From: Candidatus Kuenenia stuttgartensis
GTDB taxonomy: Bacteria > Planctomycetota > Planctomycetia > Pirellulales > UBA1268
Reading direction: 5' to 3'
Assembly: GCA_945865325.1 (NCBI GenBank)
Contig: CAMBFA010000015.1
Location: 1-37,141, forward strand
Length of the DNA: 37,141 nt
The translations under genes and the position numbers were made by a program. The notes below the pieces were generated by a model that was given only the letters and a program-made list of their open reading frames with translations, made no database searches and was not told the DNA's origin. Below are positions 17,358-34,244 of this stretch, piece after piece; within the stretch, counting starts at the first letter, position 1; every line of letters begins with the position of its first letter.

Positions 17358-18163
17358 CCCGCTCCGCCCGCCCCATGTCAATCACCCTCGTCAAGCCGTT
17401 GGTTCCCTGCGTTCTGGCCCTCGCCGTCGCGGCGGGAGTCATCGGTTCCATCGCCCGACCGCTCGTCGGCCAGGCGGCCGATCCGCCGGCGGCAGCGACC
17501 GCCGACCTGGACAACGCCCAAGACGACGCCCAGGAGGCGCTGGCCGCGAAGGCGGAAATCCTCCAGAGCTCCCGCTGGCGCCGGGCGATCTTCGAGCTGG
17601 GGGAATGGCTCTCGGTTCAGAAGATCTACCCGCCCCGCGAAGTCCAGCGGATCAAGGCGGAGTTCAACACGAAGGTGATGAAGATGTCGCCCCAGGAGAT
17701 CGAATACCTCCTCGACGACCTCGAGGCGAAGTTCAAGGTGATCGAGACGCCCGAGGCCCAGGAAGCCCGGGCCTGGATGGGGCAATACCTCTCGGCGATG
17801 TCGGACCGGAAGCGGGCCGACGTTCTCAAGGATGTCCCGAACGTCGTCGACATGACCGCCGCCCAACTCTCGGAGGAGATCTCCAAGATCGAACAGACCC
17901 GCCAGACCCTCAAGGATCGGCAGGTCGCCTTCGACGCCGGGAAACAGGTCCTCGCTGACGTCGCCGCGGCCAACCGCAAGGCCACCGCTGATGCCTCCCT
18001 CGCCGCGACCTCCAGGATGAACTCCGGCCCCTCCTTCTCCCCGTACCGATCCGGGGGGAGCGGCGGCAGTCCCCCCTTCGCCAACGCCCGCGTCGGCAGC
18101 GGGATGTCGATCGGGATCGGCCCCTGGGGCGCCTATGTCGGCATGAGCCTCGGCAACTTCTGA
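17354..18163 (+). CDS. Secreted coiled-coil protein of unknown function
   Basis: A 269-residue protein with an N-terminal signal segment (VKPLVPCVLALAVAAGVIG, residues about 13-31). The body is mostly charged and helical (residues about 45-215, including NAQDDAQEALAAKAEILQ and SEEISKIEQTRQTLKDRQ). The Ser/Gly-rich tail ends in IGPWGAYVGMSLGNF. No enzyme motif is seen. ATG 17354 overlaps the preceding stop; ATG 17375 (MSITLV) is an alternative that also keeps the signal segment. With the NTF2-like protein it forms a two-gene unit ahead of the terminator at 18289. Confidence 0.75.
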   Translation: MTRSARPMSITLVKPLVPCVLALAVAAGVIGSIARPLVGQAADPPAAATADLDNAQDDAQEALAAKAEILQSSRWRRAIFELGEWLSVQKIYPPREVQRIKAEFNTKVMKMSPQEIEYLLDDLEAKFKVIETPEAQEARAWMGQYLSAMSDRKRADVLKDVPNVVDMTAAQLSEEISKIEQTRQTLKDRQVAFDAGKQVLADVAAANRKATADASLAATSRMNSGPSFSPYRSGGSGGSPPFANARVGSGMSIGIGPWGAYVGMSLGNF

Positions 18164-18288
18164 CGAAACGCCCCCCCTCCGGCTTCCAGCCGCAGCCCAA
18201 GAACCCCACCTCGTCGCCGGCCGATCGGGACGGTATAACCTTCTCTATCGGTTCGACCCGTCCAAACTAGGAAAAATGGCCGGAAATG

Positions 18289-18313
18289 GCCGGAGCAGAG
18301 CTCCGGCTTTTTT
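18289..18313 (+). terminator. Intrinsic terminator between the secreted pair and nuo
   Basis: GCCGGAGC (18289-18296) pairs perfectly with GCTCCGGC (18300-18307) around an AGA loop, followed by six T (18308-18313). It separates the upstream transcript from the nuo operon, so the nuo promoter should lie between 18313 and 18432, where the Rex-like site is. The bases just before it contain a tandem copy of AAATGGCCGG. Confidence 0.88.
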
Positions 18314-18324
18314 CACCGCCGACT

Positions 18325-18342
18325 TTGTGAAGGATTTCACGA
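18325..18342. promoter_or_regulatory. Rex (redox-sensing repressor) operator before nuoA
   Basis: TTGTGAAGGATTTCACGA matches the Rex consensus TTGTGAAnnnnTTCACAA at 13 of 14 fixed positions. The symmetry extends outward (GACTT before, AAGTC after). It lies 12 bases after the terminator and about 90 bases before nuoA, where the operon promoter must be. Rex releases DNA when NADH is high, and in Streptomyces it controls nuo, which fits the context. I could not place -35/-10 boxes with confidence. Confidence 0.75.
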
Positions 18343-18431
18343 AGTCGTCTGGCCGGCTCCCTGGCCTGGTCTGCCCCGTTCCCCGCCAGATCGGGCACCG
18401 CCCCCGCCTTCCCTCACGGTTCAGGCCCCCC

Positions 18432-18830
18432 ATGGAAGCGATCCTTCCCGTTCTCCTGTTCGTCGCCATCGCCGCGGCGGTGTCGGTCGGGCTGGTCGTG
18501 GGTTCGAGCCTCATCGGCCCCAATAAGCGGACCAACCGGGTCAAGGAGATGCCCTACGAGAGTGGCATGGATCCGGTGCACGACACGCGCCGCCGGTTCG
18601 ACGTTCGCTTTCATCTCGTGGCGATCACGTTTCTCGTGTTCGACGTCGAGCTCCTCTTTCTCTACCCCTGGGCGGTTGCCAGCCGGTCGGCGGCGGGGAT
18701 CGACGCGGCGGTTTCCGATGGGCTCGTGTCGGGCCGCGGTCTGGTGTTCGCGGGAGCGATGGCGTTCATCGCCCTGGTTGTTGTCGGCTTCGCCTACGAC
18801 TGGCGCAAGGGGGTGTTTCGGTGGCGTTAG
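18432..18830 (+). CDS. nuoA: NADH-quinone oxidoreductase subunit A
   Basis: A 132-residue membrane subunit of complex I that helps form the quinone-site region with NuoH and NuoJ. Three membrane helices are visible (residues about 3-26, 60-82 and 100-122). The family motif YESGMDP lies in the loop after helix 1, and FHLVAITFLVFDVELLFLYPWA forms helix 2. The length is normal. The start was chosen because the protein then begins directly with helix 1; it has a C-rich leader and no Shine-Dalgarno. It is the first gene of the operon, and its end overlaps nuoB by ten bases. Confidence 0.96.
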   Translation: MEAILPVLLFVAIAAAVSVGLVVGSSLIGPNKRTNRVKEMPYESGMDPVHDTRRRFDVRFHLVAITFLVFDVELLFLYPWAVASRSAAGIDAAVSDGLVSGRGLVFAGAMAFIALVVVGFAYDWRKGVFRWR

Positions 18831-19414
18831 AACTCCCGGAAAACGTTGTTGTCAGCCGGCTCGACGAGCTTGCGAGCTGGTGCCGCAAGAACAGCCTCTG
18901 GCCGATGCCGTTTGCGACGGCATGCTGCGGCATCGAACTGATGGCGACCGGTGCCGCCAAGCACGATCTCGCCCGTTTCGGCGCCGAGGTGTTCCGCTTC
19001 AGCCCGCGGCAATGCGATCTGATGATCGTGGCCGGGCGGGTCGCCATGAAGATGCTTCCGGTCCTCCAACGGATCTGGCTGCAGATGCACGAGCCGAAGT
19101 GGTGCATCTCGATGGGGGCCTGTGCGAGCACCGGCGGCGTGTTCGACACCTACGCGGTGGTCCAAGGGATCGACCGCTTCATTCCGGTCGACATGTACGT
19201 CCCCGGCTGCCCGCCGCGTCCCGAACAGCTCATCCAGGCGATCATCGACCTCCAGGACAAGATCCAACGGGAGGGAACAATCGCCGGCCGGGAGTTCGAG
19301 ACGCGCGAGCGACAGTTCCGCAAGCGCGCCCTCGTCGAGGCGGTCGCGCCACTCTCGATCGATGCCGCCCGCAATCCGGTGATCCAGCGGGAGCTGCGAT
19401 TCCCCCGTTCCTGA
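18821..19414 (+). CDS. nuoB: NADH-quinone oxidoreductase subunit B
   Basis: A 197-residue peripheral subunit that carries cluster N2, the last [4Fe-4S] before quinone. The ligands are visible: the adjacent cysteines in ATACCGIELMA, the Cys in SMGACASTGG and the Cys in VPGCPPRPE. It starts with GTG at 18821, inside the end of nuoA, preceded by a G-rich stretch (AAGGGGG) that can serve as ribosome-binding site. A C-terminal extension of about 35 residues follows the usual end. Confidence 0.96.
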   Translation: MALELPENVVVSRLDELASWCRKNSLWPMPFATACCGIELMATGAAKHDLARFGAEVFRFSPRQCDLMIVAGRVAMKMLPVLQRIWLQMHEPKWCISMGACASTGGVFDTYAVVQGIDRFIPVDMYVPGCPPRPEQLIQAIIDLQDKIQREGTIAGREFETRERQFRKRALVEAVAPLSIDAARNPVIQRELRFPRS

Positions 19415-19476
19415 TGCTCTGGCCCCACAAAACCGTGGCCCAAGAAGCCTGACCGAGCCACCCTGTCCACGAAACC

Positions 19477-19983
19477 ATGACGCCCCCCTCCCCCACCGCC
19501 GATATCGTCCCAGCGCTCATGGCCCGGTTTCCTGGGCTGGAGACCTCGGCTTACCGTGGCCAGACGCGGGTCGTGGTCGGAGAACCGGTGTCGCTGGAGG
19601 TCCTCTCCTTCCTCGCCGCGGCCGGCTTCGATCTCCTCGTCGATGTCACCTGCGTCGACTACCTCGAATACCGTGGCGCCACGCGGCGCTACGGCCTGGT
19701 GTACCTCCTGGCCTCGACGGCCACGGCGGACCGGCTCATCGTGCGGGTGTTCGTCGACGACCCACACCCCGCCGTCCGCAGTGTTGTCGGCGTGTGGCGC
19801 TCGGCCGACTGGCTGGAACGCGAGGTGTGGGACATGTTCGGAATCGATTTCGTCGGGCACCCCGACCTCCGCCGCCTGATGATGCCCGAGCAGTTCACCG
19901 CCCACCCGCTGCGCAAGGATTACCCGCTCCAGGGGCGCGGTGAGCGTCACAACTTCCCCGTTCTCACCCGCGAGGACGGCTGA
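19477..19983 (+). CDS. nuoC: NADH-quinone oxidoreductase subunit C
   Basis: A 168-residue peripheral subunit (30-kDa family) at the junction between the electron-transfer arm and NuoB/D. The family signature is intact: ERE(V)WDMFGIDFVGHPDLRRLMMPE, then HPLRKDYPLQG. It is a separate protein, not fused to NuoD as in E. coli. It lies 62 bases after nuoB and has no Shine-Dalgarno. Confidence 0.95.
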   Translation: MTPPSPTADIVPALMARFPGLETSAYRGQTRVVVGEPVSLEVLSFLAAAGFDLLVDVTCVDYLEYRGATRRYGLVYLLASTATADRLIVRVFVDDPHPAVRSVVGVWRSADWLEREVWDMFGIDFVGHPDLRRLMMPEQFTAHPLRKDYPLQGRGERHNFPVLTREDG

Positions 19984-20052
19984 CCCTGCCGTTCGTTTCC
20001 CCGGCCTTTTCCAACCCCCCACCCGTTCCTCCAGCCATTCTAGGCCGCCACC

Positions 20053-21282
20053 ATGTCGATCGCCCCCGATCACGACACCCGCGTCCGTCCGGCGGCCACC
20101 CGCGAGGAGGACTACCTCTGGACGCTGAACTTCGGTCCCCAGCACCCCGCCACGCACACCACCCTGCGGCTCGTTCTGAAGCTCGAGGGGGAGCGGGTCG
20201 TCGATGCGATGCCGGAGATGGGCTATCTCCATTCGGGGTTCGAGAAGATCGGCGAACATCTCACGTTCAACCAGTACGTGACCGTCACCGACCGGATGAA
20301 TTACATCTCGCCGATGGCCAACAACGTCGCCTGGCACCATGCGGTGGAGACGCTCCTGGGGATCGACTTGACGCCGCGCTGCAAGGTAATTCGCACGATC
20401 GTCGCCGAGCTCGCCCGGATCAGTGACCACCTCCTTTGCAACGGTGCGGTAGGGCTCGACACCGGCGCGTTCACCTTCTTTCTTTACGGCTTCTACCAGC
20501 GCGAGGTGATCTACGACATCTTCGAGACGCTCTGCGGGGCCCGATTCACCAACAGCTACACAAGGGTCGGCGGGGTCTCCCACGATTTCACGCCGCTGGT
20601 GATCGAGAAGATCCGCACCTTTCTCCGCACCTTTCCCAAGACGCTCAACGACATGGAACGGCTGCTGACCCGCAACCGGATCTTCGTCGACCGTACGAAG
20701 GGCGTCGGCGTGCTGACGAAGGAGGAAGCGATCAACGGCGGCGCTACCGGCCCGGTGGCCCGGGCCAGCGGTGTCACCCGCGACCTGCGGAAGGACGAGC
20801 CCTACCTCGCCTATGCCGACTATGACTTCCAGGTGTGCTGCGCTGCCGCCGGCGATTGCTATGCCCGCTACCTCGTCCGCATGCAGGAGATGCGCGAGAG
20901 CCTGAAGATCCTCAATCAGGCGATCGAGAACATCCCCGCCGGCGAGGTGAACGTGGGCGTCGACCAGCGGGTCGGGCGGCCGTCGAAAGAGCAGGTCTAT
21001 TCGACGATCGAGGGAACGATCTCCCACTTCGAGCTCTCGATGAGCAACCGCACGTTCGAGGTGCCGTACGAAGAGTCGTACGCCGCCATCGAGGCCCCCA
21101 ACGGTGAGCTCGGCTTCTATGTTGTCGGCGACGGCGACGATACCGCCTACCGGGCCCGCTGCCGGCCCCCGTCCGTGCTCCACTTTTCGCTCTTCCCCCA
21201 ATTGATCCGGGGCCACACGCTCTCCGACGTGGTCGCCGTCCTCGGCAGCCTCAACATCATCGCCGCCGAGCTCGACCGCTGA
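20053..21282 (+). CDS. nuoD: NADH-quinone oxidoreductase subunit D
   Basis: A 409-residue 49-kDa-type subunit that forms the quinone-binding pocket with NuoB. It shows FGPQHPATHTTLRL near the N-terminus (residues about 31-44), with the His that lines the quinone site. It also has LGYL/MGYLHSGFEKIGE, RISDHLLCNG, and the C-terminal IIAAELDR typical of the family, which descends from Ni-Fe hydrogenase large subunits. The [NiFe] cysteines are absent, as expected. It is preceded by a 69-base C-rich spacer without a Shine-Dalgarno. Confidence 0.97.
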   Translation: MSIAPDHDTRVRPAATREEDYLWTLNFGPQHPATHTTLRLVLKLEGERVVDAMPEMGYLHSGFEKIGEHLTFNQYVTVTDRMNYISPMANNVAWHHAVETLLGIDLTPRCKVIRTIVAELARISDHLLCNGAVGLDTGAFTFFLYGFYQREVIYDIFETLCGARFTNSYTRVGGVSHDFTPLVIEKIRTFLRTFPKTLNDMERLLTRNRIFVDRTKGVGVLTKEEAINGGATGPVARASGVTRDLRKDEPYLAYADYDFQVCCAAAGDCYARYLVRMQEMRESLKILNQAIENIPAGEVNVGVDQRVGRPSKEQVYSTIEGTISHFELSMSNRTFEVPYEESYAAIEAPNGELGFYVVGDGDDTAYRARCRPPSVLHFSLFPQLIRGHTLSDVVAVLGSLNIIAAELDR

Positions 21283-21343
21283 ACCGTTCGCCGTCCACGC
21301 GCCAAGCCAACCGTCCGACCAAGCCCTCTGCCTACCCCGCCCC

Positions 21344-21850
21344 ATGATCACCACCCAGCGGATCCTGACGCCCGAGATGGTTGCGCAGATCGAGGCCCTT
21401 GCGCCCCGTTACCCCAACCGCCGCGCGCTGACGCTGCCGGCCCTGCACATCGTCAACGATTGCCTGCGGTACGTGCCTTTCGAGGCCGTCGTCGAGGTGG
21501 CCCAACTCCTTGGCCTCGCCCCGGCTGAGGTCCAGGACACGCTCTCCTTCTATGCGTTTTTTCCGCAGGACAAGCCGTCGGGTCGGACCCGGGCGTGGGT
21601 CTGCCGATCGGTGTCGTGCGCGCTGCGGGGGGGCGAGGAAATCCTCGACCACATCTGCCATGCCGCCGGCATCGATCCCTACGGCACAACCACCGATGGT
21701 GCCCTCACGGTCGAGCCCGCCGAGTGCCTCGGGGCCTGTGACTTCGCCCCCTGCATGCTCGCCGGCAAGACCCTCCACAAGAACCTCACCAAGGAATCGG
21801 CCGAGGCGTTCGTCCGCGACGCCCGGTCTCCGGTCGGCACACCTTCCTGA
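21344..21850 (+). CDS. nuoE: NADH-quinone oxidoreductase subunit E
   Basis: A 168-residue 24-kDa-type subunit with an N-terminal helical part and a thioredoxin-like [2Fe-2S] domain. The four ligands are in CRSVSC (C-x4-C) and CLGAC (C-x3-C). It forms the NADH-oxidising module with NuoF and NuoG, so the encoded complex accepts NADH rather than only ferredoxin. The length is normal. The start is preceded by a C-rich sequence without a Shine-Dalgarno. Confidence 0.96.
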   Translation: MITTQRILTPEMVAQIEALAPRYPNRRALTLPALHIVNDCLRYVPFEAVVEVAQLLGLAPAEVQDTLSFYAFFPQDKPSGRTRAWVCRSVSCALRGGEEILDHICHAAGIDPYGTTTDGALTVEPAECLGACDFAPCMLAGKTLHKNLTKESAEAFVRDARSPVGTPS

Positions 21851-21898
21851 ATCGCTCCTCTGTCGTTCCTCGTTCCCGCAATCCTCCCCAACGATCCC

Positions 21899-23254
21899 AT
21901 GACTACCTTCCAACCGGTTCTCCTCGAAGCCGTCGGCGTTGCCGGGAGCCACACGCTCGAGAGCTACCGCAGCCGTGGCGGCTACGCGCCGCTGGAACGG
22001 ATGCTCAAAGAGAACCAGCCGGCGGACGTGATCGAGCTGGTGAAGTCGTCGGGGCTGCGCGGCCGGGGGGGCGCCGGATTCCCCACCGGGCTGAAGTGGA
22101 CGTTCCTCCCCAAGGATCATCCCGGGCCGATCTATCTGTGCATCAACGCCGACGAGAGCGAACCGGGAACGTTCAACAACCGGATCTTGATGGAGGATGA
22201 CCCGCACCAAGTGATTGAGGGGATCATCCTCTCGGCTTACGCGACGCGGGCCACCACCGCCTACCTCTACCTGCGCTACGAATACCCGCTGTGCTGGGAC
22301 CGTCTCCAGGGCGCCATCGACGAGGCCTATGCCGCCGGGCTCCTCGGGAAGAATATCCAGGGGAGCGGCTTTTCGCTCGATCTCTACCTCCACCGCGGTG
22401 CGGCCGCCTACATCTGCGGTGAGGAGACGGGGCTCATCGAAAGCCTCGAGGGGAAGCGGGCCTGGCCGCGGATCAAGCCGCCGTTCCCGGCAATCGAAGG
22501 GCTCTTCCGCAAGCCGACGGTCGTCAACAACATCGAGACGATGGCTTGCGTCGCCCAGATCGCCCGCCGCGGGGTCGAGTGGTTCCGCTCGATCGGTGTT
22601 CCCTCCGATCCGAACAACCCGCGTGATCCGGGGAGCTACGGGCCGAAGCTCTACTGCCTCTCCGGCCATGTCGAGCGCCCCGGTTGCTACGAGGCCCCCC
22701 TCGGCATCACCGCCCGCCAGCTCATCGACGGCCAGGGAGGCGGGGTGTGGAAGGGGCGGAAGGCGAAGGCGGTGATCCCCGGCGGGATCTCGATGGGCCT
22801 GATGACGGAGGCCGAGCTCGACACCCCGCTCGATTTCGCCGGCCCCGGCAAGGTCGGCTGCCTCGGCCTCGGTACCGCCGCGGTCGTCGTCATCGACGAA
22901 ACGGTGAGCATTGTCGACTTCCTCCACAACTCCTGCCGGTTCTTCGCCCACGAGTCCTGCGGGCAGTGCACCCCCTGCCGCGAGGGGACGGCCTGGTCGC
23001 TGCGGATGCTCGAGCGGATCCGGGCCGGCAAGGGCCGGCTCAAGGATCTCGACCTCCTCGCCGAAATCGGCAACACGATGGGCATGATGCCCGGGTCAAC
23101 GATCTGCGGCCTCGCCGACGGTGCGGCTTGGCCGATCAAGAACGCCATCAAGAAGTTCCGCGGCGAGTTCGAGGACTACATCAAGCGGACGAATCCCTCC
23201 GGCTGGATGGTCACCGACCCTGTTCCTGCCCTCCAGATCGTCGGAGCCCACTGA
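21899..23254 (+). CDS. nuoF: NADH-quinone oxidoreductase subunit F
   Basis: A 451-residue 51-kDa-type subunit, the entry point for NADH. The FMN/NADH-binding loops are GLRGRGGAGFPTGLKW and NADESEPGTFNNR, followed by CGEETGLIESLEG. Cluster N3 ligands are the C-x2-C-x2-C in SCGQCTPCREG plus the Cys of STICGLADG. It is complete and of normal length. It is followed by a 111-base spacer holding a long inverted repeat (23257-23338) before nuoG. Confidence 0.97.
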   Translation: MTTFQPVLLEAVGVAGSHTLESYRSRGGYAPLERMLKENQPADVIELVKSSGLRGRGGAGFPTGLKWTFLPKDHPGPIYLCINADESEPGTFNNRILMEDDPHQVIEGIILSAYATRATTAYLYLRYEYPLCWDRLQGAIDEAYAAGLLGKNIQGSGFSLDLYLHRGAAAYICGEETGLIESLEGKRAWPRIKPPFPAIEGLFRKPTVVNNIETMACVAQIARRGVEWFRSIGVPSDPNNPRDPGSYGPKLYCLSGHVERPGCYEAPLGITARQLIDGQGGGVWKGRKAKAVIPGGISMGLMTEAELDTPLDFAGPGKVGCLGLGTAAVVVIDETVSIVDFLHNSCRFFAHESCGQCTPCREGTAWSLRMLERIRAGKGRLKDLDLLAEIGNTMGMMPGSTICGLADGAAWPIKNAIKKFRGEFEDYIKRTNPSGWMVTDPVPALQIVGAH

Positions 23255-23256
23255 CC

Positions 23257-23338
23257 GGAAAAGGTGCCAGCCACCATTTTCACAAGCCACCTCCGCGTGC
23301 CGAATCGCCCCAGGAACATGGTGGCTGGCACTCTTTCC
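23257..23338. repeat. REP-like long inverted repeat between nuoF and nuoG
   Basis: GTGCCAGCCACCAT (23264-23277) and ATGGTGGCTGGCAC (23318-23331) are perfect inverted copies. The flanks GGAAAAG (23257-23263) and TCTTTCC (23332-23338) extend the stem to 21 pairs with one G-T and one mismatch; the loop is 40 bases. The element starts two bases after the nuoF stop. It looks like a mobile REP/MITE-type hairpin; no second copy was noticed in the window. Confidence 0.8.
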
Positions 23339-23365
23339 TGATCGCCCCTCCTGCCAACACGCCAC

Positions 23366-24985
23366 ATGCCCACAGTCATCGTCGACGGTAAAGATATCGA
23401 GATCGGCGCCCACGAGCGGCTCAACTGCATCGAGGTCGCGCGCCGCGCCGGCGTGGAGATCCCCCATTACTGCTGGCACCCGGGGCTATCGGTGGTGGCC
23501 AGCTGCCGGATGTGCCTCATCGAGACCGGCACCCGCGACGCCGCCACCGGCAAGATCACGATGATGCCGAAGCTCGTCCCCGGCTGTCAGACGCCGGCGA
23601 AGGACGGCACTGTGATCGTCACCGACACGGCGTTGGTCAAGGACAGCCGGGCCCGCGTCGAGGAAGCGCTGCTCATCGATCATCCGATCGATTGCTCGAT
23701 CTGCGACAAGGCCGGTGAGTGCCTCCTTCAGGACTACCACTTCGAGCACGGTCAGGCGGAGCGGCGCACCGATCTGAATCCCTTTCACAGCCGCCGCCGC
23801 GACGTCGGCCCGACGGTCACGCTGTTCGTCGACCGCTGCATCATGTGCACCCGCTGCGTGCGGTTCACCCGTGAGGTGTCGGGGACGAGTGAGTTGATGG
23901 TGATCAACCGCGGCTCCAAGGAGGAGATCGCGGTCTTCCCCGGCTTTCCCCTCGATAACAAACTCTCCGGCAACGTCGTCGACCTCTGTCCGGTCGGAGC
24001 CCTTGGCGACAAGGACTTCCTCTACCAGCAGCGCGTCTGGTTCCTGAAGCGCGAGTCGAACGTCTGCGGTGGCTGCTCGGCAGGATGCTCGATCGTCACC
24101 GAACACAACCAAGACACCGTCTACCGCCTCAAGCCGCGTGAGAATCCCCACGTCAACAAGTGGTGGATGTGCGACGACGGCCGGTACGGCTGGCACCACC
24201 TCCACGATCCCGCCCGGCTCCTCTCGGCTGGCAGGCTCGTGTCGAGCAACGATGACCACGAGACGGTGGAGTGGTCCGACGTAACGACGCGACTGCGGCA
24301 GGATCTCTCCGGCGCCGGTCGGCTCGCCGTCGCCGTCTCGCCGATGCTCACACTCGAAGAGGCGTGGATGCTTTGCGCCGTCGCCCGTTCGATCGACCAG
24401 CAGGCGGCCCTGTTCGTGGGGCATGTCCCCGTCTCCGGCAGCGACGAATCATTCCCCGGGGGCTTCACGATCCGGGCCGAGAAGTGTCCCAACCGGATCG
24501 GTGTCGAGGCGGTCGTGGCCCTCTTCGAGCCGGAGATTCGCGGCTGGAACGAGCTCGTTCGGGCCGTCGGCGCCGGCGAGTATGACGCGGCGTGGATCAC
24601 CGCCGGTTATCCCCACGCCTGGATCGACGACACGACCGCGGCGCCGTTCGGAAAGCTGCGATTGCTCGTCGTCCAGGACTTGTTCGAGTCGCCGCTGTCG
24701 AAGCTCGCCACCTGGCGGCTCCCCGCCGCCGGTTTCGCCGAACGGGCCGGCACCTGGGTCAACGTTGCCCACCGCGCTCAAGTCTTCGCCGCTGCCGTCC
24801 GCGCCCCGGCCGGGGTTTGGCCGGAAGGCCGCCTCTACTGGAACATGCTCGGCCGTCGCGGACTCTACGACCCCGCGGCCGTTCGCCGGCAGATCGCCGA
24901 ATCGTCCGCCGCTCTGGCCGCGCTCGGCGGGGACCTACCCGCCGTCGGCGTCGATCTCCGCGTCGACCAACTCGCCTCGTCCTGA
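23366..24985 (+). CDS. nuoG: NADH-quinone oxidoreductase subunit G (short form)
   Basis: A 539-residue 75-kDa-type subunit that carries the Fe-S chain of the NADH arm. The [2Fe-2S] domain has YCWHPGLSVVASCRMC and PGCQTP. It is followed by the His-Cys cluster (DHPIDCSICDKAGECLLQDY) and C-x2-C-x2-C (CIMCTRC) with DLCPVGAL. An extra C-x2-C-x3-C (CGGCSAGC), with a Cys in WWMCDDG, would bind N7, a cluster absent from many complexes. The molybdopterin-like C-terminal domain is much shorter than in E. coli NuoG (about 900 residues). Its stop codon lies in a 19-bp tandem repeat, so the end may have been shaped by that duplication. There is no Shine-Dalgarno. Confidence 0.94.
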   Translation: MPTVIVDGKDIEIGAHERLNCIEVARRAGVEIPHYCWHPGLSVVASCRMCLIETGTRDAATGKITMMPKLVPGCQTPAKDGTVIVTDTALVKDSRARVEEALLIDHPIDCSICDKAGECLLQDYHFEHGQAERRTDLNPFHSRRRDVGPTVTLFVDRCIMCTRCVRFTREVSGTSELMVINRGSKEEIAVFPGFPLDNKLSGNVVDLCPVGALGDKDFLYQQRVWFLKRESNVCGGCSAGCSIVTEHNQDTVYRLKPRENPHVNKWWMCDDGRYGWHHLHDPARLLSAGRLVSSNDDHETVEWSDVTTRLRQDLSGAGRLAVAVSPMLTLEEAWMLCAVARSIDQQAALFVGHVPVSGSDESFPGGFTIRAEKCPNRIGVEAVVALFEPEIRGWNELVRAVGAGEYDAAWITAGYPHAWIDDTTAAPFGKLRLLVVQDLFESPLSKLATWRLPAAGFAERAGTWVNVAHRAQVFAAAVRAPAGVWPEGRLYWNMLGRRGLYDPAAVRRQIAESSAALAALGGDLPAVGVDLRVDQLASS

Positions 24986-25002
24986 CCAACTCGCCTCGTC
25001 CT
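24965..25002 (+). repeat. 19-bp tandem duplication at the nuoG stop codon
   Basis: GACCAACTCGCCTCGTCCT occurs twice without a gap (24965-24983 and 24984-25002). The first copy encodes the last residues of NuoG and the second is noncoding, just after the stop. It is probably a recent slippage or duplication event. Confidence 0.9.
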
Positions 25003-25079
25003 GACTGGTTCGGCCCCTCGATCGCTTCTGGCTTCCCTCCGACATCCACGCCCGTCCCGACCGCCACGAATTCCAGCCC

Positions 25080-26387
25080 ATGAATCTTCTCCCCTCTGCG
25101 GCAACCCTGGCGGCGCTTGTGAAGATCGGCCTGCTCGTCGGCGGGCTGATGACCGCGGCGGCCTATCTCGTGCTCCTGGAGCGGTGGATCGCCGCCTGGG
25201 TGCAGGATCGCCGCGGGCCGAACCGGGTCGGGATCCCACTCACGAAGATCCGCCTCTTCGGTCTCGGTCAACCGCTGGCCGACGGCCTGAAGATCATCCT
25301 CAAGGAAGATTTCACCCCCAGCCATGTCGACCGCGTCCTCTACAACGCGGCGCCGCTGGTCATTCTCGCCGCGTCCCTGGCGATCTTCGCGGCGATCCCG
25401 TTCGGGAGCGTCCTTCCGCCGCTGGGGATCCCCGGCCTCCCCGATCCGGTCCCCTTCCTCGTGGCGCCGGGCCTCGATGTCGGCGTGCTGTGGGTTTTCG
25501 CGCTGTCGAGCATCGCGGTCTACGGCGTCCTTCTCGGGGGCTGGGCGAGCAACAACAAATACGGCTTCCTCGGCGGACTGCGGTCAAGCGCCCAGCTCGT
25601 TGCCTACGAGATTCCCCTCGGCCTCGGGCTGCTCGGCGTCGTCCTGGCCGCCGGCAGCCTCCGGCTCGACACGATCATGAACGCCCAGGCGGAGTCGGGC
25701 GTGTGGTATGCGTTTGCCCAGCCGCTGGGCTTCATCGTCTTCATGGTGGCGAGCTTCGCCGAGGCGGCGCGGCTCCCGTTCGACCTCCCCGAGGCGGAGC
25801 AGGAGCTCGTCGGTGGCTACCACACCGAATACTCCGGCATCAAGCTCCTTCTGTTCCTCGTGGCCGAGTTCCTCCACATGATCACGGCGGCGTTCCTGAT
25901 CGTGATCCTGTTCCTCGGCGGCTGGCATCTGTGGGGTGTGACCGGATCGTCGCAGGAGATCGGCTGGATCCAGGCCCTGCTGCGATTCGGCATCCTCTCG
26001 GGGAAGATCCTCGGGGTGATCGTGTTCTTCATGCTCGTCCGTTGGAGCTGGCCGCGGTTTCGCTTCGATCAGCTCATGAATCTCGCCTGGAAGGTGATGC
26101 TGCCGCTGGGCCTGGTGAACCTCGTGACGGTGGCGACGGTGGAGGAGTTTCGCCCGCAGCTCGTCGCCGCCCTCGGCCCCGGATTCGCGCACGCCGTGGC
26201 GATCGCGCTCCCCTGGATCGCCTGCCTCGCCGGCTGGCTCGTGGCCGGGGTCTTCACCCCCTCGGGCACCGACAACACCCCGATCCTGACGCACGATCCC
26301 CTCGACATCGAGCGGGAGCTCGCCGAACACGAGCGCCTCGAACGCTCACCCCACGACGTTTCCCCGACACTGGCAGGCAGCCGATGA
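25080..26387 (+). CDS. nuoH: NADH-quinone oxidoreductase subunit H
   Basis: A 435-residue membrane subunit that forms the quinone channel at the interface with NuoB/D. It has about eight or nine hydrophobic helices and the conserved loops ERWIAAWVQDRRGPNRVG (residues about 31-48), LADGLKIILKED and FAEAARLPFDLPEAEQELVGGYHTEYSG. It is longer than E. coli NuoH (about 325), with additional length around residues 95-135 and in a polar C-terminal tail. The stop overlaps the start of nuoI (ATGA). Confidence 0.96.
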   Translation: MNLLPSAATLAALVKIGLLVGGLMTAAAYLVLLERWIAAWVQDRRGPNRVGIPLTKIRLFGLGQPLADGLKIILKEDFTPSHVDRVLYNAAPLVILAASLAIFAAIPFGSVLPPLGIPGLPDPVPFLVAPGLDVGVLWVFALSSIAVYGVLLGGWASNNKYGFLGGLRSSAQLVAYEIPLGLGLLGVVLAAGSLRLDTIMNAQAESGVWYAFAQPLGFIVFMVASFAEAARLPFDLPEAEQELVGGYHTEYSGIKLLLFLVAEFLHMITAAFLIVILFLGGWHLWGVTGSSQEIGWIQALLRFGILSGKILGVIVFFMLVRWSWPRFRFDQLMNLAWKVMLPLGLVNLVTVATVEEFRPQLVAALGPGFAHAVAIALPWIACLAGWLVAGVFTPSGTDNTPILTHDPLDIERELAEHERLERSPHDVSPTLAGSR

Positions 26388-26974
26388 AACCGACCGATCC
26401 AGCCATCACTTGGCTCGAAGAGAAACCGCTCGGGCTCACCGAACGGCTCTACCTCCCCCTCTTTTTCCAGGGGCTCTCGACCACGGCGCGGCACATGGTG
26501 AGCCGCAAAGTGACCGTGAATTACCCCGAGGTCCGCCCGACCATCGGCAACCCCCTCATCTACCGTGGCGTCCACCGCCTCAATCGCGACGATGCCGGCC
26601 GGGTGAAGTGTGTGGCCTGTTTCCTCTGTGCCACCGCCTGCCCGGCGCACTGCATCGACATCGTCGCCACCGAGAGCCCGTGGCCCGACCGGGAGAAGTA
26701 TCCGGAGAGCTTTACGATCGACGAGCTCCGCTGCATCTTCTGCGGGATGTGCGAGGAGGCCTGCCCCGTCGACGCGATCGAGCTCACGAGCCTCCTCGAT
26801 CTGACGGGAAAAAGCCGCGAGGAGATGATCTTCGACAAGGAGAAGTTGTTGAGCGTCTACGACATGACGAAAGATGCCGAGCCGATGAAGTCGAAGACGC
26901 TCGCCGCCGGCGGCATGGCGACGTTCGGCCCGGCCCCGGGCTCCCCCGCGGCTGGGGCGGGAGGCCACCACTGA
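26384..26974 (+). CDS. nuoI: NADH-quinone oxidoreductase subunit I
   Basis: A 196-residue 23-kDa-type subunit carrying clusters N6a and N6b. Two 8Fe ferredoxin motifs are complete: CVACFLCATACPAHCI and CIFCGMCEEACPVDAI. An amphipathic N-terminal helix (LYLPLFFQGLSTTARHM) attaches it to the membrane arm. A Gly/Ala-rich tail of about 30 residues ends in GGHH. The start overlaps nuoH (ATGA); the far longer open frame upstream is antisense or other-frame read-through. Confidence 0.96.
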   Translation: MKPTDPAITWLEEKPLGLTERLYLPLFFQGLSTTARHMVSRKVTVNYPEVRPTIGNPLIYRGVHRLNRDDAGRVKCVACFLCATACPAHCIDIVATESPWPDREKYPESFTIDELRCIFCGMCEEACPVDAIELTSLLDLTGKSREEMIFDKEKLLSVYDMTKDAEPMKSKTLAAGGMATFGPAPGSPAAGAGGHH

Positions 26975-27804
26975 TGGATCCCGTCGCCGCGACCACCCTC
27001 CCCATCCCCGGGCTCCTCCTCGCCGGGAGCGTCGCCGCCCTCGCCGCGAGCTTGTGGCTCCTCCTCCCCAAGACGTCCGACACCGTCAACTCACGGCGGC
27101 TGGGATTCCTCCTCGGTGCCGCAGCGCTGATCGGCTTCGCCGCCACGGGCCGCTCGCTCGGGGGTGTCGGCGAGGACGCCGTCTTCCTGACCGTCGCCGG
27201 AATCGCCGTCATCTCCGGCCTGGCAACGATCGTGACCCGCTCGCCGGTTTACTCGGCGATCTGGTTCGCGATGGCATTGGCGGGCGTTTCGGGGGTGCTC
27301 CTCGTGCTCGGTGCGCAGTTCCTCGGCGTGGCGACGATCGTCGTCTATGCCGGCGCGATCCTCGTGATGTTCCTGTTTGTGCTCATGCTCGCCCAGCCGT
27401 CGGGGATGGCGCCGTATGACCGGGTGTCGAACGAGCCGATGCTCGCGGCCGCCGCCGGCGCCGTTCTCCTTGGCCTGCTCACGCTGTCGATCGGCCGCCT
27501 CTCCGCCGCCGAACCCCCGGCCTGTTGCCGGCTGCCCTCGCGGGCGCAGGCCATGGCCGCCGCGCCTACGGAGGGCGCCGGATCGGAGGATGATCGGAGC
27601 GCGACGCTGCTCGCCCCGGCGACGGCCGGCGTGGAGAGTGTCGATGCCGACGAGGTCGCCCACCTCGGCGCCGAGTTGTTCGGCCGGCATCTGTTCGCTG
27701 TCGAGGTTGCGGGCGTGCTCCTGCTGGTGGCGCTCGTTGGCTCCATCGCCGTCGTGTCGCGGGGCGAGGCGACCGAAACCGACCACCGGAGGGAGAGCCG
27801 ATGA
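26974..27804 (+). CDS. nuoJ: NADH-quinone oxidoreductase subunit J
   Basis: A 276-residue membrane subunit with five predicted helices. The region GVATIVVYAGAILVMFLFVLMLAQP is the conserved third helix with the characteristic pi-bulge neighbourhood. It is longer than usual because of a soluble loop (residues about 180-230, with CC and many Asp/Glu) before the last helix. The start ATG shares one base with the nuoI stop (TGATG), with GGGAGG eleven bases upstream. Confidence 0.93.
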   Translation: MDPVAATTLPIPGLLLAGSVAALAASLWLLLPKTSDTVNSRRLGFLLGAAALIGFAATGRSLGGVGEDAVFLTVAGIAVISGLATIVTRSPVYSAIWFAMALAGVSGVLLVLGAQFLGVATIVVYAGAILVMFLFVLMLAQPSGMAPYDRVSNEPMLAAAAGAVLLGLLTLSIGRLSAAEPPACCRLPSRAQAMAAAPTEGAGSEDDRSATLLAPATAGVESVDADEVAHLGAELFGRHLFAVEVAGVLLLVALVGSIAVVSRGEATETDHRRESR

Positions 27805-28244
27805 TCCCCGCCACGCTGCTCACCAATGCCCTCCTCGTGGGGGCCGTTCTCTTCTGTCTCGGCCTGGTGGGGATCCTCACCCGCCGCAATCTGATCGTCA
27901 TGTTTCTCTCCGCGGAGTTGATGCTCCAGGGGGTGTCGGTGACGCTCGTCGCCTGGAGCCGCTACCACGGCGACTGGGGGGGGCAGGTCCTCGTGGTCTT
28001 CGTCCTCACCGTCGCCGCCTGCGAGGCCGCGGTGGCGCTGGTCTTCGTGCTCCAGGCGTTCGCCCGCACCGGTCGTCTCGATGCTTCCGCCTGGCAGGCG
28101 CTCCGGGAGGAGAACCTCCCCCGGGTGATCGACCATGGGCTCCCCGCCGACGACCGCGTGGTGCCGACGTGGCCCCACCTCTCTCCCGCCGGTGTCCTTC
28201 CCGAAGGGGACGATTCCAGATCCCTCGAGCGCGACCACGTCTGA
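27801..28244 (+). CDS. nuoK: NADH-quinone oxidoreductase subunit K
   Basis: A 147-residue MrpC-like membrane subunit. Three helices cover residues about 1-95, with the conserved intramembrane glutamates in FLSAELMLQG and VAACEAAVALVF, both needed for proton movement in the family. A soluble C-terminal extension of about 50 residues (DHGLPADDRVVPTWPH region) is absent from E. coli NuoK (100 residues). The start overlaps nuoJ (ATGA), with GGAGGGAG upstream. Confidence 0.94.
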   Translation: MIPATLLTNALLVGAVLFCLGLVGILTRRNLIVMFLSAELMLQGVSVTLVAWSRYHGDWGGQVLVVFVLTVAACEAAVALVFVLQAFARTGRLDASAWQALREENLPRVIDHGLPADDRVVPTWPHLSPAGVLPEGDDSRSLERDHV

Positions 28245-28326
28245 CCATCGTGCCGGCAAACTCCCCTGCCGGCCACCCGCCCCCGACATCGACGCCCGAC
28301 CCCCACAGGCCCCCGAACCGACTCCC

Positions 28327-30627
28327 ATGCAGTTTTCCGTCGCCAATCTCCTGGTGCTCGTTCCCCTGCTGCCGCTGCTGGGGGCTGTCTGCACCGTTCT
28401 CCTCGGCCGCCGGCTCGGGCCCCGGGCGCACCTCCCGGCCGTGGCGGGGATCGGCGCCGCCGCAGTCGTCGCGCTGCTTCTGCTTCTCGTCACCGCCAAT
28501 CAAGTCGGCGGCCGACATGCCGATCCGACGCATCCGGTCGAATCGGTCGAGATGATCTCGACGCTGTGGCAATGGGCCACCGTCGTTGACGCCCGGTCTG
28601 GCGATCTTCCCGCGGCGGAGGCCGGTGTGCCGATGGCTCCGGGCACGGCCGTCAGCGGCGGCACCTTCTCGGTCCCAATCGCGCTGCGTCTGGATCCGCT
28701 CACCGCCACGCTCCTGATGGTGATCACGGGTGTGGGGCTGCTGGTCGCCATCTACTCGATCGGCTACATGCACGACGATCCGGGCTCTCCCCGGTTCTTC
28801 GCGCTGGTGGCGATGTTCGTGTTTTCGATGTCGATGCTCGTGGCCGCGAGCAACTTCCTCCTCGTCTACGTCTTCTGGGAGGCGGTGGGGGCCTGCAGTT
28901 ATCTGCTCATCGGCTTTTGGTACACCAAGCCCGAGGCCGCGCGGGCAGCGAAGAAGGCGTTTCTCGTCAACCGGGTCGGTGACTTCGGTCTGGCGATCGC
29001 CGTGTTTCTCCTCTGGATGACCTACGGCACACTCAACTTCCACGACACGCACCTCGCCGACGGCACGTTCGTCGAGGGAATCCTCGGCCAAACCCGAATC
29101 GCCGACGAAGCCGGCTATGTCGCTGGCGCCGTCGGCACAGCCATCTGCCTGCTGATGCTCCTGGCGGCCTGCGGCAAGAGCGCCCAGATGCCGCTCCATG
29201 TCTGGTTGCCCGACGCGATGGAGGGGCCGACCCCGGCCAGCGCCCTGATCCATGCCGCCACGATGGTCACGGCGGGGATCTATTTGATCACCCGTTCGGC
29301 GCCGCTGTTTATGGGCTGCCCGGGAGCGCTCACGATGGTGTCGATCGTCGGGGCGACGACGGCGCTCGTCGCTGCGCTCATCGCCACGGTGCAAAACGAT
29401 CTCAAACGGGTGCTCGCGTATTCCACCATCAGCCAACTCGGCTACATGTTCGTCGCCCTCGGCACCGGCACGATGCTCGGGTTCACCGCGGCGATTTTCC
29501 ACCTCGTCACGCATGCCTTCTTCAAGGCCCTGCTTTTTCTCGGCGCCGGTTCGGTGATGCACGCCATGGGGGGCGTGATCGACATGCGGCGCTTCGGTGG
29601 ACTCAGGCACGTGATGCCGATCACGGCGGGGACGTTCCTGGTCGGGGCCTTTGCCCTCGCCGGCGTCCCCCCGTTCGCCGGATTCTTCAGCAAGGACGAG
29701 ATCCTCGCCTCGCTCCACGCCAAGGCGCACCCGGAAGCCCATGGCTCGGATCACGCCGCAGCGGGCTCGGCCGGGGAGCGACCGAGAGATCTCGCCGGCG
29801 GGGCGGGGCTCGTGGCAAACGTCCCCGTCCGCCCGTTTCGTCCGGGGTCGATGATCACCCGCGTCTCGCTTTCAGACGCGCATGACGTCTCGCCCGAGGC
29901 TCATGGCGTCTCGCCCGAGAAGGTGGGGCTCGACGCCCTCGACCATCCGTCGACTTGGCGGCTACTGTTTTGGATGTCGCTGCTCACCGCCGGACTGACG
30001 GCGTTTTATACGTTCCGCGCGGTGTTCATGACCTTCACAGGCCCGGTCCGCATCCCGAAAGAGGCCGGGCACCACGCCCATGAGTCCCCTCCGGCGATGA
30101 CCAACCCACTCCTTATCCTGGCCGCTCTTTCGGCGTTCTCGGGGCTCGTGCTCTTCGTCACCAACGCCCTGTCGAACTTCCTCGCCGCCACCCCGTCGCT
30201 GACCGCGCCGGCCGTGGCCCGTACGGCCGTCCCGCACGTCTTCCATTGGGATATCGCCATCCAGGGAACCCTCGCTGCCGCCATCGGCATCGCCGTGGCG
30301 GCGATCGGCCACCTCGGCCGGCGCAGCGATTCGCCGCAGATGGAGCGCTATCTTGGCCCCCTGGGAGCGCTGTTTGCCAACAAATTCTACCTCGATCAGA
30401 TCTACGCCGCGCTCATCGTTAAGCCCCTCGAGGCGCTGGCGATGGTCACGGCCTTCTTCGACCGCGCGATCGTCGACGGCACGGTCGATGCGATCGGCCA
30501 GGTGCCGCTCGCCTGGGGCTCGGCGATCCGCCGGATGCAGTCAGGCCTCGTGCAGCGCTATGCCTTGGCGGGGGTCGTCGGGGTGCTGGCGATCGTCCTC
30601 GCCCTTGCCTGGCAGCTTCGCCCCTGA
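28327..30627 (+). CDS. nuoL: NADH-quinone oxidoreductase subunit L
   Basis: A 766-residue antiporter-like proton-pumping subunit at the end of the membrane arm. It shows the core helices and motifs: VFWEAVGACSYLLIGFWY with the key Glu, KSAQMPLHVWLPDAMEGPTPASALIHAATMV with the key Lys, and LKRVLAYSTISQLGYMF. It is about 150 residues longer than E. coli NuoL (613). A major part of the excess is a hydrophilic insert around residues 465-540 (HPEAHGSDHAAAGSAGE; DAHDVSPEAHGVSPEK, itself a small duplication). The C-terminal lateral helix region is present. The start is preceded by a C-rich spacer without a Shine-Dalgarno. Confidence 0.95.
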   Translation: MQFSVANLLVLVPLLPLLGAVCTVLLGRRLGPRAHLPAVAGIGAAAVVALLLLLVTANQVGGRHADPTHPVESVEMISTLWQWATVVDARSGDLPAAEAGVPMAPGTAVSGGTFSVPIALRLDPLTATLLMVITGVGLLVAIYSIGYMHDDPGSPRFFALVAMFVFSMSMLVAASNFLLVYVFWEAVGACSYLLIGFWYTKPEAARAAKKAFLVNRVGDFGLAIAVFLLWMTYGTLNFHDTHLADGTFVEGILGQTRIADEAGYVAGAVGTAICLLMLLAACGKSAQMPLHVWLPDAMEGPTPASALIHAATMVTAGIYLITRSAPLFMGCPGALTMVSIVGATTALVAALIATVQNDLKRVLAYSTISQLGYMFVALGTGTMLGFTAAIFHLVTHAFFKALLFLGAGSVMHAMGGVIDMRRFGGLRHVMPITAGTFLVGAFALAGVPPFAGFFSKDEILASLHAKAHPEAHGSDHAAAGSAGERPRDLAGGAGLVANVPVRPFRPGSMITRVSLSDAHDVSPEAHGVSPEKVGLDALDHPSTWRLLFWMSLLTAGLTAFYTFRAVFMTFTGPVRIPKEAGHHAHESPPAMTNPLLILAALSAFSGLVLFVTNALSNFLAATPSLTAPAVARTAVPHVFHWDIAIQGTLAAAIGIAVAAIGHLGRRSDSPQMERYLGPLGALFANKFYLDQIYAALIVKPLEALAMVTAFFDRAIVDGTVDAIGQVPLAWGSAIRRMQSGLVQRYALAGVVGVLAIVLALAWQLRP

Positions 30628-30684
30628 TCCGCCGGTCGACCCATCCTCCACCGAACCACCGGCTCCACCGCGACATCCCCAGCC

Positions 30685-32502
30685 ATGAACCCCTTCTCCC
30701 CAGCCAACCACCTCATCCTGGTCATCCTCACGCCGCTGGTCGGTGCTCTGGCGGCTTGGCTGCTCGGGTCGCGCGGCGTCTCGGCGGTGCGTCAGAGCGC
30801 CGCGGTGACGACGCTGATCACGCTCACCGGCGCCGTCCTCCTCATCCTCCGTGCCCTTCCAGCGGTGTCGGCCGGGCACGCCTTCGCCGTCAGCGAGGGG
30901 CCGTGGCTCGTCGACGGGCCGTTCGACATCCGCTTCTCGCTCGGCCTCGACGGGCTGTCGATCTGGTTGTTCGGCCTCTCGGCACTCCTCTCGGTGACGG
31001 CCGTCATGGTCAGCTGGGAAGCGATCAAGGAGAAGCCGGTCGGTTTCTACGCGCTCCTGCTCATCCTCGAATCGGCGATGCTCGGCGTGTTCGCCGCTCG
31101 GGACGTGATGCTGTTTTATGTGTTTTTCGAGTTCACCCTCGTGCCGCTGTTCTTTCTCATCGGCATCTGGGGGCACGATGACCGCCGGCGGGCGGCGGTG
31201 AAGTTTTTCATCTACACCCTTGCCGGGAGCGTGCTGGCGTTCTTGGGCCTGCTCACGATCGTCCTTTGGAATGCGTCCCACACCGGCACGCTCTCCTTCG
31301 ACATCGCCAAGCTCACCGCCGGCCTGGCGGCCCATCCGCTCCCGATGGATGCCCGCGGGGGCTGGCTGCAGTGGTGGGTATTCCTCGCCCTGTTTGCCGG
31401 TTTCGCCGTCAAGGTGCCGATCGTCCCCTTCCACACCTGGCTGCCGCTGGCCCACGTCGAGGCACCGACGGGGGCGAGCGTCGATCTCGCCGGCGTGCTG
31501 CTGAAGATCGGCATCTACGGATTCCTCCGCTTCTCCCTCCCGATGCTCCCCGAGGCGACCGCCGCGGCCGCCCCCTGGATCCTCGGCCTGGGGGTGATCG
31601 GGATCCTTTACGGGGCGCTGGTAGCGCTGGCCCAGAGCGATCTCAAGCGGCTCATCGCCTATTCGTCGGTGAGTCACATGGGCTACTGCGTGATGGGGAT
31701 CGCGGCACTGGAACCGGTGGCTGTCGAGGGAGCAACGCTCCAGTTGATCAACCACGGCCTGTCAGCGGCGGGGCTGTTCGCGCTGGTCGGGATGATTTAC
31801 GAGCGCTACCACACGCGCTCGATCGCGAATCTCGGCGGGATCGCGGCGCGGGCCCCTTGGCTGGCGTTCATGTTCCTCCTCTTCACCTTCTCGAGCATCG
31901 GGCTGCCGGGGCTGAATGGCTTCGTGGGTGAGTTCATGGTGCTATTGGGTTCGTTCCAGCGGGCCTGGAGCGGCGTCGCATTCGAATGGCGCTCCTCGTA
32001 TCTCACCATGGCGGTCGCTTCGGTCGTGGGTGTCGTGCTCGGGGCCTGGTACATGCTCTGGGCCGTGGAGCGAGTGTTCTTCGGGGCGTCGCGGCAGCCT
32101 CCCGCCGACCACGGCCACGCCCCCCCTTCCAGCGCCGACCATGGCGCCAGCGGCGATGATTCGCACGGTCATGGCGGTCATGGTGATGGTGGTCATGACC
32201 ATGGTCCGGCGGCCGCCGAGCCGACCGACGATCTGCGCTGGTACGAATGGGCGGCGCTGGCGCCCCTCGCCCTCTTCGTTCTGTGGATCGGCCTCTTTCC
32301 GGCCACGTTCCTCGCTCCCAGTGCTGCCGCCGTGCGCACCGCCATGGCTCCCGGGGCCGCTGCCTTTGCCGCCCGGATGGGGGCCGTCCACGGCTCCCCC
32401 CTCCCCCAGACGGCCCAGGCCGACGCCGCCACGACGCTCCCCGGCGCGGCCATTGTTCCTTCCGATCCTCCTCTCACCGCCGGCTTCGAACGAATCCCAT
32501 GA
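30685..32502 (+). CDS. nuoM: NADH-quinone oxidoreductase subunit M
   Basis: A 605-residue antiporter-like proton-pumping subunit. Conserved elements include FYVFFEFTLVPLFFLIGIWG with the key Glu, PFHTWLPLAHVEAPTGASVDLAGVLLKIG with the quinone-arm-facing Lys region, and LKRLIAYSSVSHMGYC. An unusual loop at residues about 471-512 is rich in His, Asp and Gly (SADHGASGDDSHGHGGHGDG), a potential metal-binding segment between the last helices. The stop overlaps nuoN (ATGA). Confidence 0.96.
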   Translation: MNPFSPANHLILVILTPLVGALAAWLLGSRGVSAVRQSAAVTTLITLTGAVLLILRALPAVSAGHAFAVSEGPWLVDGPFDIRFSLGLDGLSIWLFGLSALLSVTAVMVSWEAIKEKPVGFYALLLILESAMLGVFAARDVMLFYVFFEFTLVPLFFLIGIWGHDDRRRAAVKFFIYTLAGSVLAFLGLLTIVLWNASHTGTLSFDIAKLTAGLAAHPLPMDARGGWLQWWVFLALFAGFAVKVPIVPFHTWLPLAHVEAPTGASVDLAGVLLKIGIYGFLRFSLPMLPEATAAAAPWILGLGVIGILYGALVALAQSDLKRLIAYSSVSHMGYCVMGIAALEPVAVEGATLQLINHGLSAAGLFALVGMIYERYHTRSIANLGGIAARAPWLAFMFLLFTFSSIGLPGLNGFVGEFMVLLGSFQRAWSGVAFEWRSSYLTMAVASVVGVVLGAWYMLWAVERVFFGASRQPPADHGHAPPSSADHGASGDDSHGHGGHGDGGHDHGPAAAEPTDDLRWYEWAALAPLALFVLWIGLFPATFLAPSAAAVRTAMAPGAAAFAARMGAVHGSPLPQTAQADAATTLPGAAIVPSDPPLTAGFERIP

Positions 32503-34244
32503 CCCAGACGTCGCTATCGACTTTCCTCCTCGCCGGTCCAGAGCTCGTCCTCGTGGTGGCCGCCCTCGTGGCCTACCTCGGCGGCGCCTTCTGTGGGCTG
32601 CGCCAGGGATGGCTCGTGGCCCTCATCGGCATCGCGGTCGCGGCTTGCTGGCCGGGGATGGAGCTCGAAGCCGGGTCGGTCGTGTCATCGGGGCCGTTCA
32701 CCTTCGATGACTTCGCCCTCTTCGTCCGCCGCTTCGTTCTCCTGGCCGGGGCGGGGCTGGCGTTGGTGCAGGCGGGGGATCAGTTCCGCAGCGCGGTCAC
32801 CCCCCGGCAGACGCCGCGCGCCAACAGCACCTGCGAAGAGGCGGGGACGTTTCTCCTCCTCCTCGCCGGAGTGTCGCTGGTGGCCTCCGCCAATGATCTC
32901 GTCCTCCTCTTCGCCGGCCTGGAGTTGGTGTCGATCCCGACCTACATCCTCCTGGCGCTGAAGCGGACCGATGCCCAGGGGCAGGAAGCGAGCCTGAAGT
33001 ATTTCTTCCTCTCGTTGGTCGCTTCGGCCCTCTTCCTCTATGGCTTGGCCTGCCTCTACGGAATCGGTGGATCGACGAGCCTCGCCGAGATCGGTAGCCG
33101 GCTCCGCTCCGGTGATGGCCGGATCGTGGCAACCGCCCAGACGCTCCTCCCAGTGGCCGTCGGGATGTTGATCGGCGGAATCGCGTTCCGGCTCGCCGCG
33201 GTGCCGATGCATTTCTACGCTCCGGATGTGTACGAAGGGGCCGGCCCCGGCAATGCGGCGCTCCTCTCCACGCTTCCGAAGGTGGCCGGCATCGTCGTCC
33301 TCCTCCGTCTGCTCGCCCTCGGGACCGGAGGGAAGCTGGGGATGATCGCTCTCAACCAGGGGGTCGTCGGACCGGCCGGCGTTGCCTGGCTGACGTTTTT
33401 CTGGCAGCTCACGGCGGTGCTCGCGGCCCTGACGATGACCGTCGGCAACTGCATGGCGCTGCTGCAGACGAATCTCCGCCGGCTGCTCGCCTGCTCCTCG
33501 ATCGCCCACGCCGGCTATCTTCTTGTCGGCGTGGCCGCCGCGGCCGCGGCCGATGCCACGGTCGGCGGCCGCCCCTTCGCGGGCCCCGACACCTCATGGA
33601 CCGCCGCCCTGGGGGGCGCCTCGGCGACGCTCTTCTACCTCGCTGCCTACGTCGCCGCCACGATTGGCGTGTTTGGGGCGCTGGCGTATCTGGGGCACCG
33701 CTGGCCGGAGTGGTCGGCGGGCTCGGCGCCGCGGCCGCCGCGCGAGGAGATCAGCACGATCGAAGACCTCGACGGTCTGTCGGCGACCAACCCGGTGGTC
33801 GCCTTCTCGCTGGCCACCTTTCTGCTGAGCCTCGCCGGCATCCCGCCGCTCCCCGGCTTCTGGGGCAAGCTGTCGCTGGCGATGGCCGCCCTCGAGGTCG
33901 ACTGGACGGCCCAGGCGACTCCGGGGAGCCGCCGCGTGTTCTTCCTGGCGCTCGCCGTGATCCTCGTGATCAACGCGGCGATCGCCGCCGCCTACTATCT
34001 CCGGATCGTGGCGGCCATGTACTTCCGCTCCGCGAAGCGCGGCGTGCAGGCTGACGGTGGCCTCGGCGCCGGCATCGCGATGCTCGCGGCGCTGGTGGTG
34101 ATGGCGATGGTCACCCTCCAGCCACGCCCGCTGTTCTCCGCCGCCGCGCGGGCCGGGGCATCGATCGCGCCGGGAGCCGCCAGCGGCCTTACGATCACTC
34201 CTCCACACGCCATCACCGCCCCCCAGGCCTCGACCCAACCATGA
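32499..34244 (+). CDS. nuoN: NADH-quinone oxidoreductase subunit N
   Basis: A 581-residue third antiporter-like subunit. It shows DLVLLFAGLELVSIPTYILLAL with the key Glu, FRLAAVPMHFYAPDVYEGAGPGNAALLSTLPK with a conserved Lys, and LRRLLACSSIAHAGYLL. It is somewhat longer than E. coli NuoN (485), with Ala/Gly-rich additions around residues 345-365 and at the C-terminus. The start ATG overlaps the nuoM stop, and the stop overlaps the Mrp-family gene, both as ATGA. Confidence 0.95.
   Translation: MTQTSLSTFLLAGPELVLVVAALVAYLGGAFCGLRQGWLVALIGIAVAACWPGMELEAGSVVSSGPFTFDDFALFVRRFVLLAGAGLALVQAGDQFRSAVTPRQTPRANSTCEEAGTFLLLLAGVSLVASANDLVLLFAGLELVSIPTYILLALKRTDAQGQEASLKYFFLSLVASALFLYGLACLYGIGGSTSLAEIGSRLRSGDGRIVATAQTLLPVAVGMLIGGIAFRLAAVPMHFYAPDVYEGAGPGNAALLSTLPKVAGIVVLLRLLALGTGGKLGMIALNQGVVGPAGVAWLTFFWQLTAVLAALTMTVGNCMALLQTNLRRLLACSSIAHAGYLLVGVAAAAAADATVGGRPFAGPDTSWTAALGGASATLFYLAAYVAATIGVFGALAYLGHRWPEWSAGSAPRPPREEISTIEDLDGLSATNPVVAFSLATFLLSLAGIPPLPGFWGKLSLAMAALEVDWTAQATPGSRRVFFLALAVILVINAAIAAAYYLRIVAAMYFRSAKRGVQADGGLGAGIAMLAALVVMAMVTLQPRPLFSAAARAGASIAPGAASGLTITPPHAITAPQASTQP

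Follow-up and report, generated by a model that had tools for sequence, protein, structure and literature searches.

The closest described system is Rex of Streptomyces, which has proven sites at nuoA1-N1, atpI, cydA1 and rex and regulates the nuo and atp operons (PMC5355995); an earlier note on the DNA analysed here had pointed to this control of nuo. The planctomycete locus that we describe shares with Streptomyces the type of palindrome (the Streptomyces nuoA1 site is TTGTGACCTGCTTCACAT), the kinds of target operon and the repressor family (PMC5355995). The two also differ. In Streptomyces the operators of nuoA1 and atpI fall on the -35 region (PMC5355995), whereas that of planctomycete nuoA comes after a hairpin and T-run in the leader. 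Streptomyces rex carries its own site (PMC5355995), whereas the rex gene here shows none, and the flanking GACT..AGTC symmetry is longer here than in Streptomyces Rex sites. Rex operators on nuo and atp are already known; what is distinctive in the planctomycete case is a hairpin and T-run at a fixed distance from the operator.

This layout recalls two known cases in which a DNA-bound protein hinders elongation. At the terminators of RNA polymerase I, a roadblock protein (Reb1 or Nsi1) halts the enzyme 15 bp short of its own site, in a T-rich tract, after which an RNA hairpin is needed for release; LexA and Lac repressor are poor substitutes where backtracking is needed (PMC12366685). The likeness, a hairpin, a T-rich tract and a DNA-bound protein about 15 bp further on, is one of resemblance only. 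RNA polymerase I terminators are eukaryotic, constitutive and placed at the 3' end of rRNA genes, with the hairpin 20 nt from the stop (PMC12366685), whereas the planctomycete arrangement involves a bacterial leader, a metabolite-responsive repressor and a hairpin that adjoins the T-run. Among bacteria, CcpA at B. subtilis rocG offers a likeness, as a repressor bound downstream of the start that hinders elongation (PMC4348106). The literature that we searched yielded no bacterial precedent for a hairpin and T-run paired with an operator at a fixed distance, and no paper naming both "Rex regulon" and "Planctomycetes". To our knowledge, no dedicated hairpin and T-run at a fixed distance before a bacterial roadblock operator has been described.

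The window, by which we mean the whole stretch of 37,141 nucleotides that was analysed, carries a complex I operon on the plus strand. Its first gene is nuoA (18432-18830; PF00507, 102 bits), followed by nuoB, C, D, E, F, G, H, (I), J, K and L and two further antiporter-type subunits (M, N) at 18821-34244, with start codons as given, unrefined, by a mechanical listing of open reading frames. Directly 3' of the nuo genes, at 34241-35332, lies an iron-sulphur carrier of the NUBPL/ParA type (PF10609) that may have a role in complex I assembly.

Upstream of nuoA, the sequence TTGTGAAGGATTTCACGA at 18325-18342 matches the Rex consensus core (TTGTGAAN4TTCACAA) at 13 of 14 positions, the sole mismatch to TTGTGAANNNNTTCACAA being G for A at position 17. 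The core is the centre of a near-perfect 26-bp palindrome, GACTTTGTGAAGGATTTCACGAAGTC (18321-18346), which confirms both the match and the extended symmetry that the earlier note had described. Measured across CGACTTTGTGAA-GGAT-TTCACGAAGTCG (18320-18347), 11 of 12 arm positions are complementary. Only one other site in the 4.42-Mb draft genome comes within one mismatch of the consensus, at C6:40939 upstream of a Rieske gene, so that a search of the genome for further Rex-type sites does find one. At up to three mismatches the whole draft genome holds 35 sites against 19 for a reversed control pattern, which indicates that weak matches to the Rex pattern are mostly noise and that the nuoA site is not.

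The genome encodes a Rex protein. It contains one canonical rex gene, the homologue that the earlier note had said should be looked for. Both Rex domains are present in the product, which passes the cut-offs of several NCBIfam Rex models (with up to 257 bits) and aligns along its length to solved Thermus-type Rex structures. Across the family, 56 of 72 genomes have rex; of the 34 that are of high quality, 31 do. All of them are drafts. We looked for an operator near rex itself and found none, and there is thus no sign of autoregulation. Three high-quality family drafts (G034, G354 and G363) have the nuoA site and no rex match, possibly through gaps in the draft assemblies or recent loss of rex.

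The site is conserved with nuoA. It is present upstream of the gene at 61 of 64 family loci; at one of the remaining three the contig ends too near nuoA, and the other two have no match. The first 30 nuoA loci recovered all carry it (strand respected); among these, GTGA and TCAC never vary, and GACT and AGTC on either side hardly do. Seven left-arm and inner consensus positions are unequally kept in comparison, and C is frequent right after the left GTGA.

Beyond the family, the site follows rex. In a comparison at order and class level that allowed at most two mismatches, the nuoA-upstream site occurs in 19 of 22 genomes with rex and in 0 of 8 without it, although the eight belong to two families and are not eight independent events. 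Exact core matches across the phylum are found in 56 of 141 rex-positive and 18 of 156 rex-negative genomes (Fisher p = 2e-8), while reversed-pattern controls are low in both groups; these counts, like all our genome counts, are inflated by shared ancestry. Given the canonical rex gene, the conservation before nuoA within the family and the tracking of rex beyond it, the identity proposed in the earlier note is well supported: the site is very probably a Rex operator that would repress the complex I operon while NADH is in short supply.

Other predicted targets likewise belong to respiration or NADH metabolism. Searches with the extended motif returned 2–6 sites in most genomes, whereas the control mostly gave 0–1. 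Sites recur at the Rieske gene, which diverges from purD, and at nuoH of a second nuo operon, where the site falls between nuoD and nuoH. Outside the family, a site also recurs at a small gene that is a weak match to ATP synthase gene 1 (below the curated cut-off) and divergent from a DUF4912 gene; this is apparently an ATP synthase operon site. Single cases are nqrA and a cytochrome c. The predicted planctomycete Rex regulon would thus take in two nuo operons, Rieske and probably ATP synthase. At the family Rieske loci, TTGACA-N16-TANANT ends 6–8 bp before the operator, which places the start of the operator near the predicted transcription start. The second nuo operon of the window's genome (contig 4, 50000-62500) shows no recognisable site, unlike those of relatives.

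Promoter positions at two of these targets deserve separate mention. At the second nuo operon of nine loci (L137, L139-L144, L155 and L156), a promoter-like pair, TTGTGG-N17-CARACT, extends over the left flank of an operator that is half degenerate. In order-level genomes with the putative atp gene (L145-L149, L151, L162 and L164), a TTGACA-type -35 box follows the operator, after either 12–15 bp or 3–4 bp. With the two distances about one helical turn apart, this looks like the position of an activator rather than a repressor; it is unusual for a repressor, and simple repression does not explain it.

The nuoA leader itself has an architecture of its own. A promoter-like element, CTCGTC-N18-TATAAC, lies at 18210-18239 on the plus strand and is conserved in most family leaders. 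The exact pattern is almost confined to nuoA: a search of 10 genomes found it there in 9, and at a single other place. It lacks a standard -35 box, and a standard sigma-70 scan gave no match to it. Taken as the nuo promoter, it predicts a start at about 18246, some 75 bp upstream of the operator. Next come a GC-rich, terminator-like hairpin in the predicted leader (18288-18308, plus strand), the only such hairpin in 18100-18500, and a T-run (18308-18313, plus strand) that starts 13 bp before the operator. The order in the window is therefore promoter-like element, hairpin, T-run, operator and nuoA. The earlier note had placed the site between a terminator and nuoA, where promoter control would be needed. 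The placement holds, since the site does lie between hairpin and nuoA; the promoter control does not follow as simply, because the only conserved promoter-like element is upstream, at 18210-18239. A start far from the site had been named as a point against Rex control, and in this genome a predicted start some 75 bp away partly bears it out for simple promoter occlusion. By analogy with the nuoH class we searched for a promoter overlapping the nuoA operator and found none.

The distance between T-run and operator is nearly fixed. Among the 53 family loci with a T-tract, 40 have its start 13 bp from the operator and 9 have it at 14 bp. Its standard deviation within the family is 0.6 bp, against 21 bp for the distance from operator to ATG and 19 bp for that from TATAA to operator. 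We took the spacing from the start of the T-tract, not from the end of the hairpin, because stems can extend into the T-run and blur the latter measure. At 44 of 74 loci a stem of -9 kcal/mol or below stands ahead of the T-tract, versus 9% of shuffles; these stems use 33 different 5'-arm hexamers, and hairpins of differing sequence stand at the same place in relatives. Eight family loci have no T-tract, and in six of these (genera g7 and g9, and G346 of g4) TATAA lies 12–22 bp from the operator. Where relatives lack the hairpin, TATAA precedes the operator by 12–13 bp (by 22 bp in one). This is the classical arrangement, and it would put the operator at the predicted start site.

Other families show a less exact version of the layout, with the T-tract starting mostly 11–15 bp before the operator, a frequent CTCGAC/GTCGAG stem and, in several, TTGACN boxes upstream. 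A hairpin with a T-rich tail is found in 13 of the 19 rex-positive leaders that have a site, against a single weak one among the eight rex-negative leaders.

Whether the palindrome is read by Rex can be questioned in two ways. Its TGTGA-N6-TCACA core, common to Rex and CRP sites, has the half-sites and spacing of CRP, the Rex consensus is not strict at its inner A/T, and the activator-like positions at atp (3–4 or 12–15 bp before a -35 box, a helical turn from each other) would suit a regulator of the CRP/FNR family. We think such a regulator improbable. Staphylococcus Rex sites share the same TGTGAN6TCACA core (PMC8376106), the Rieske and hairpin-less nuoA sites occupy a repressor position at the predicted start, and core sites across the phylum are likewise associated with rex. 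It is chiefly the tracking of rex by the nuoA site (19/22 against 0/8, in genomes sorted by the presence of rex) that points to Rex rather than a CRP-type protein with the same half-sites. Still harder to credit is that the palindrome acts as a hairpin in the leader RNA and not as a DNA operator. It would fold as RNA and sits in the predicted leader, but no Rfam family matched, and GTGA and TCAC are invariant rather than co-varying and recur in the same letters before unrelated operons, as expected of protein recognition.

The question that bears on mechanism is a different one, namely whether the hairpin and T-run belong to nuo at all. A co-directional gene upstream ends at 18163, and no standard -35 box accompanies TATAAC; hairpin and T-run could then be the end of that gene, with Rex acting by ordinary occlusion on an unrecognised nuo promoter at or after the operator. 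We regard this as unlikely, though well short of negligible. No -10-like sequence is kept at or after the operator, the near-fixed spacing ties the T-run to the operator, and in order-level relatives the hairpin is preceded by TTGACN-type boxes. Moreover, the conserved TATAAC lies upstream of the hairpin and adjoins the operator where the hairpin has been lost. A conserved promoter-like element on the far side of the terminator makes the latter probably part of the nuo leader and not the end of the upstream gene.

With Rex as the regulator and the hairpin in the nuo leader, a model of control can be outlined. By analogy with the known Rex family, in which NAD+ favours repression and NADH relieves it (PMC5355995, PMC8376106), Rex with NAD+ would occupy 18321-18346, and a rise in NADH/NAD+ would free it and allow nuo to be transcribed; from the operator and its partner gene we infer this binding, the NADH response and the direction of control. 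The operator appears to lie within the transcribed leader in this genome and most relatives, so that the step blocked would be elongation, and Rex is most likely a roadblock to elongating polymerase at loci of this leader type. Judged from the geometry of the polymerase, a Rex dimer on the operator would halt the enzyme at about the T-run, and the leader hairpin might then free the transcript from polymerase stalled there.

We tentatively propose, as a possibility that we hold short of probable, that hairpin, T-run and operator form one device in several families of the class, through which the NADH state would decide whether transcription of the complex I operon ends early. That the three parts stand in the order known from RNA polymerase I terminators, and at a near-fixed spacing, suggests a common logic; as the hairpin is far nearer here to where polymerase would stop, backtracking may be unnecessary. 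Even apart from any termination, the operator would add planctomycetes to the bacteria whose respiratory chain is under Rex control, a step backed by a direct test of co-occurrence with rex. If the coupling of hairpin and operator is real, a metabolite-sensing repressor would act here in an unusual way, by provoking premature termination, and a roadblock-plus-hairpin device of the RNA polymerase I type would exist in bacteria, as a switch.

Two further sequence motifs recur around these operators. A degenerate GGTTRTGACGG-like stretch that resembles a Rex half-site is found in many family leaders downstream of TATAAC and ahead of the hairpin (in the window, at about 18246-18287). Some 6–10 bp behind the operators, a short motif like CGGCCGAAAA or CGGCCGATTTTC recurs at nuoA, at Rieske and, more weakly, at nuoH.
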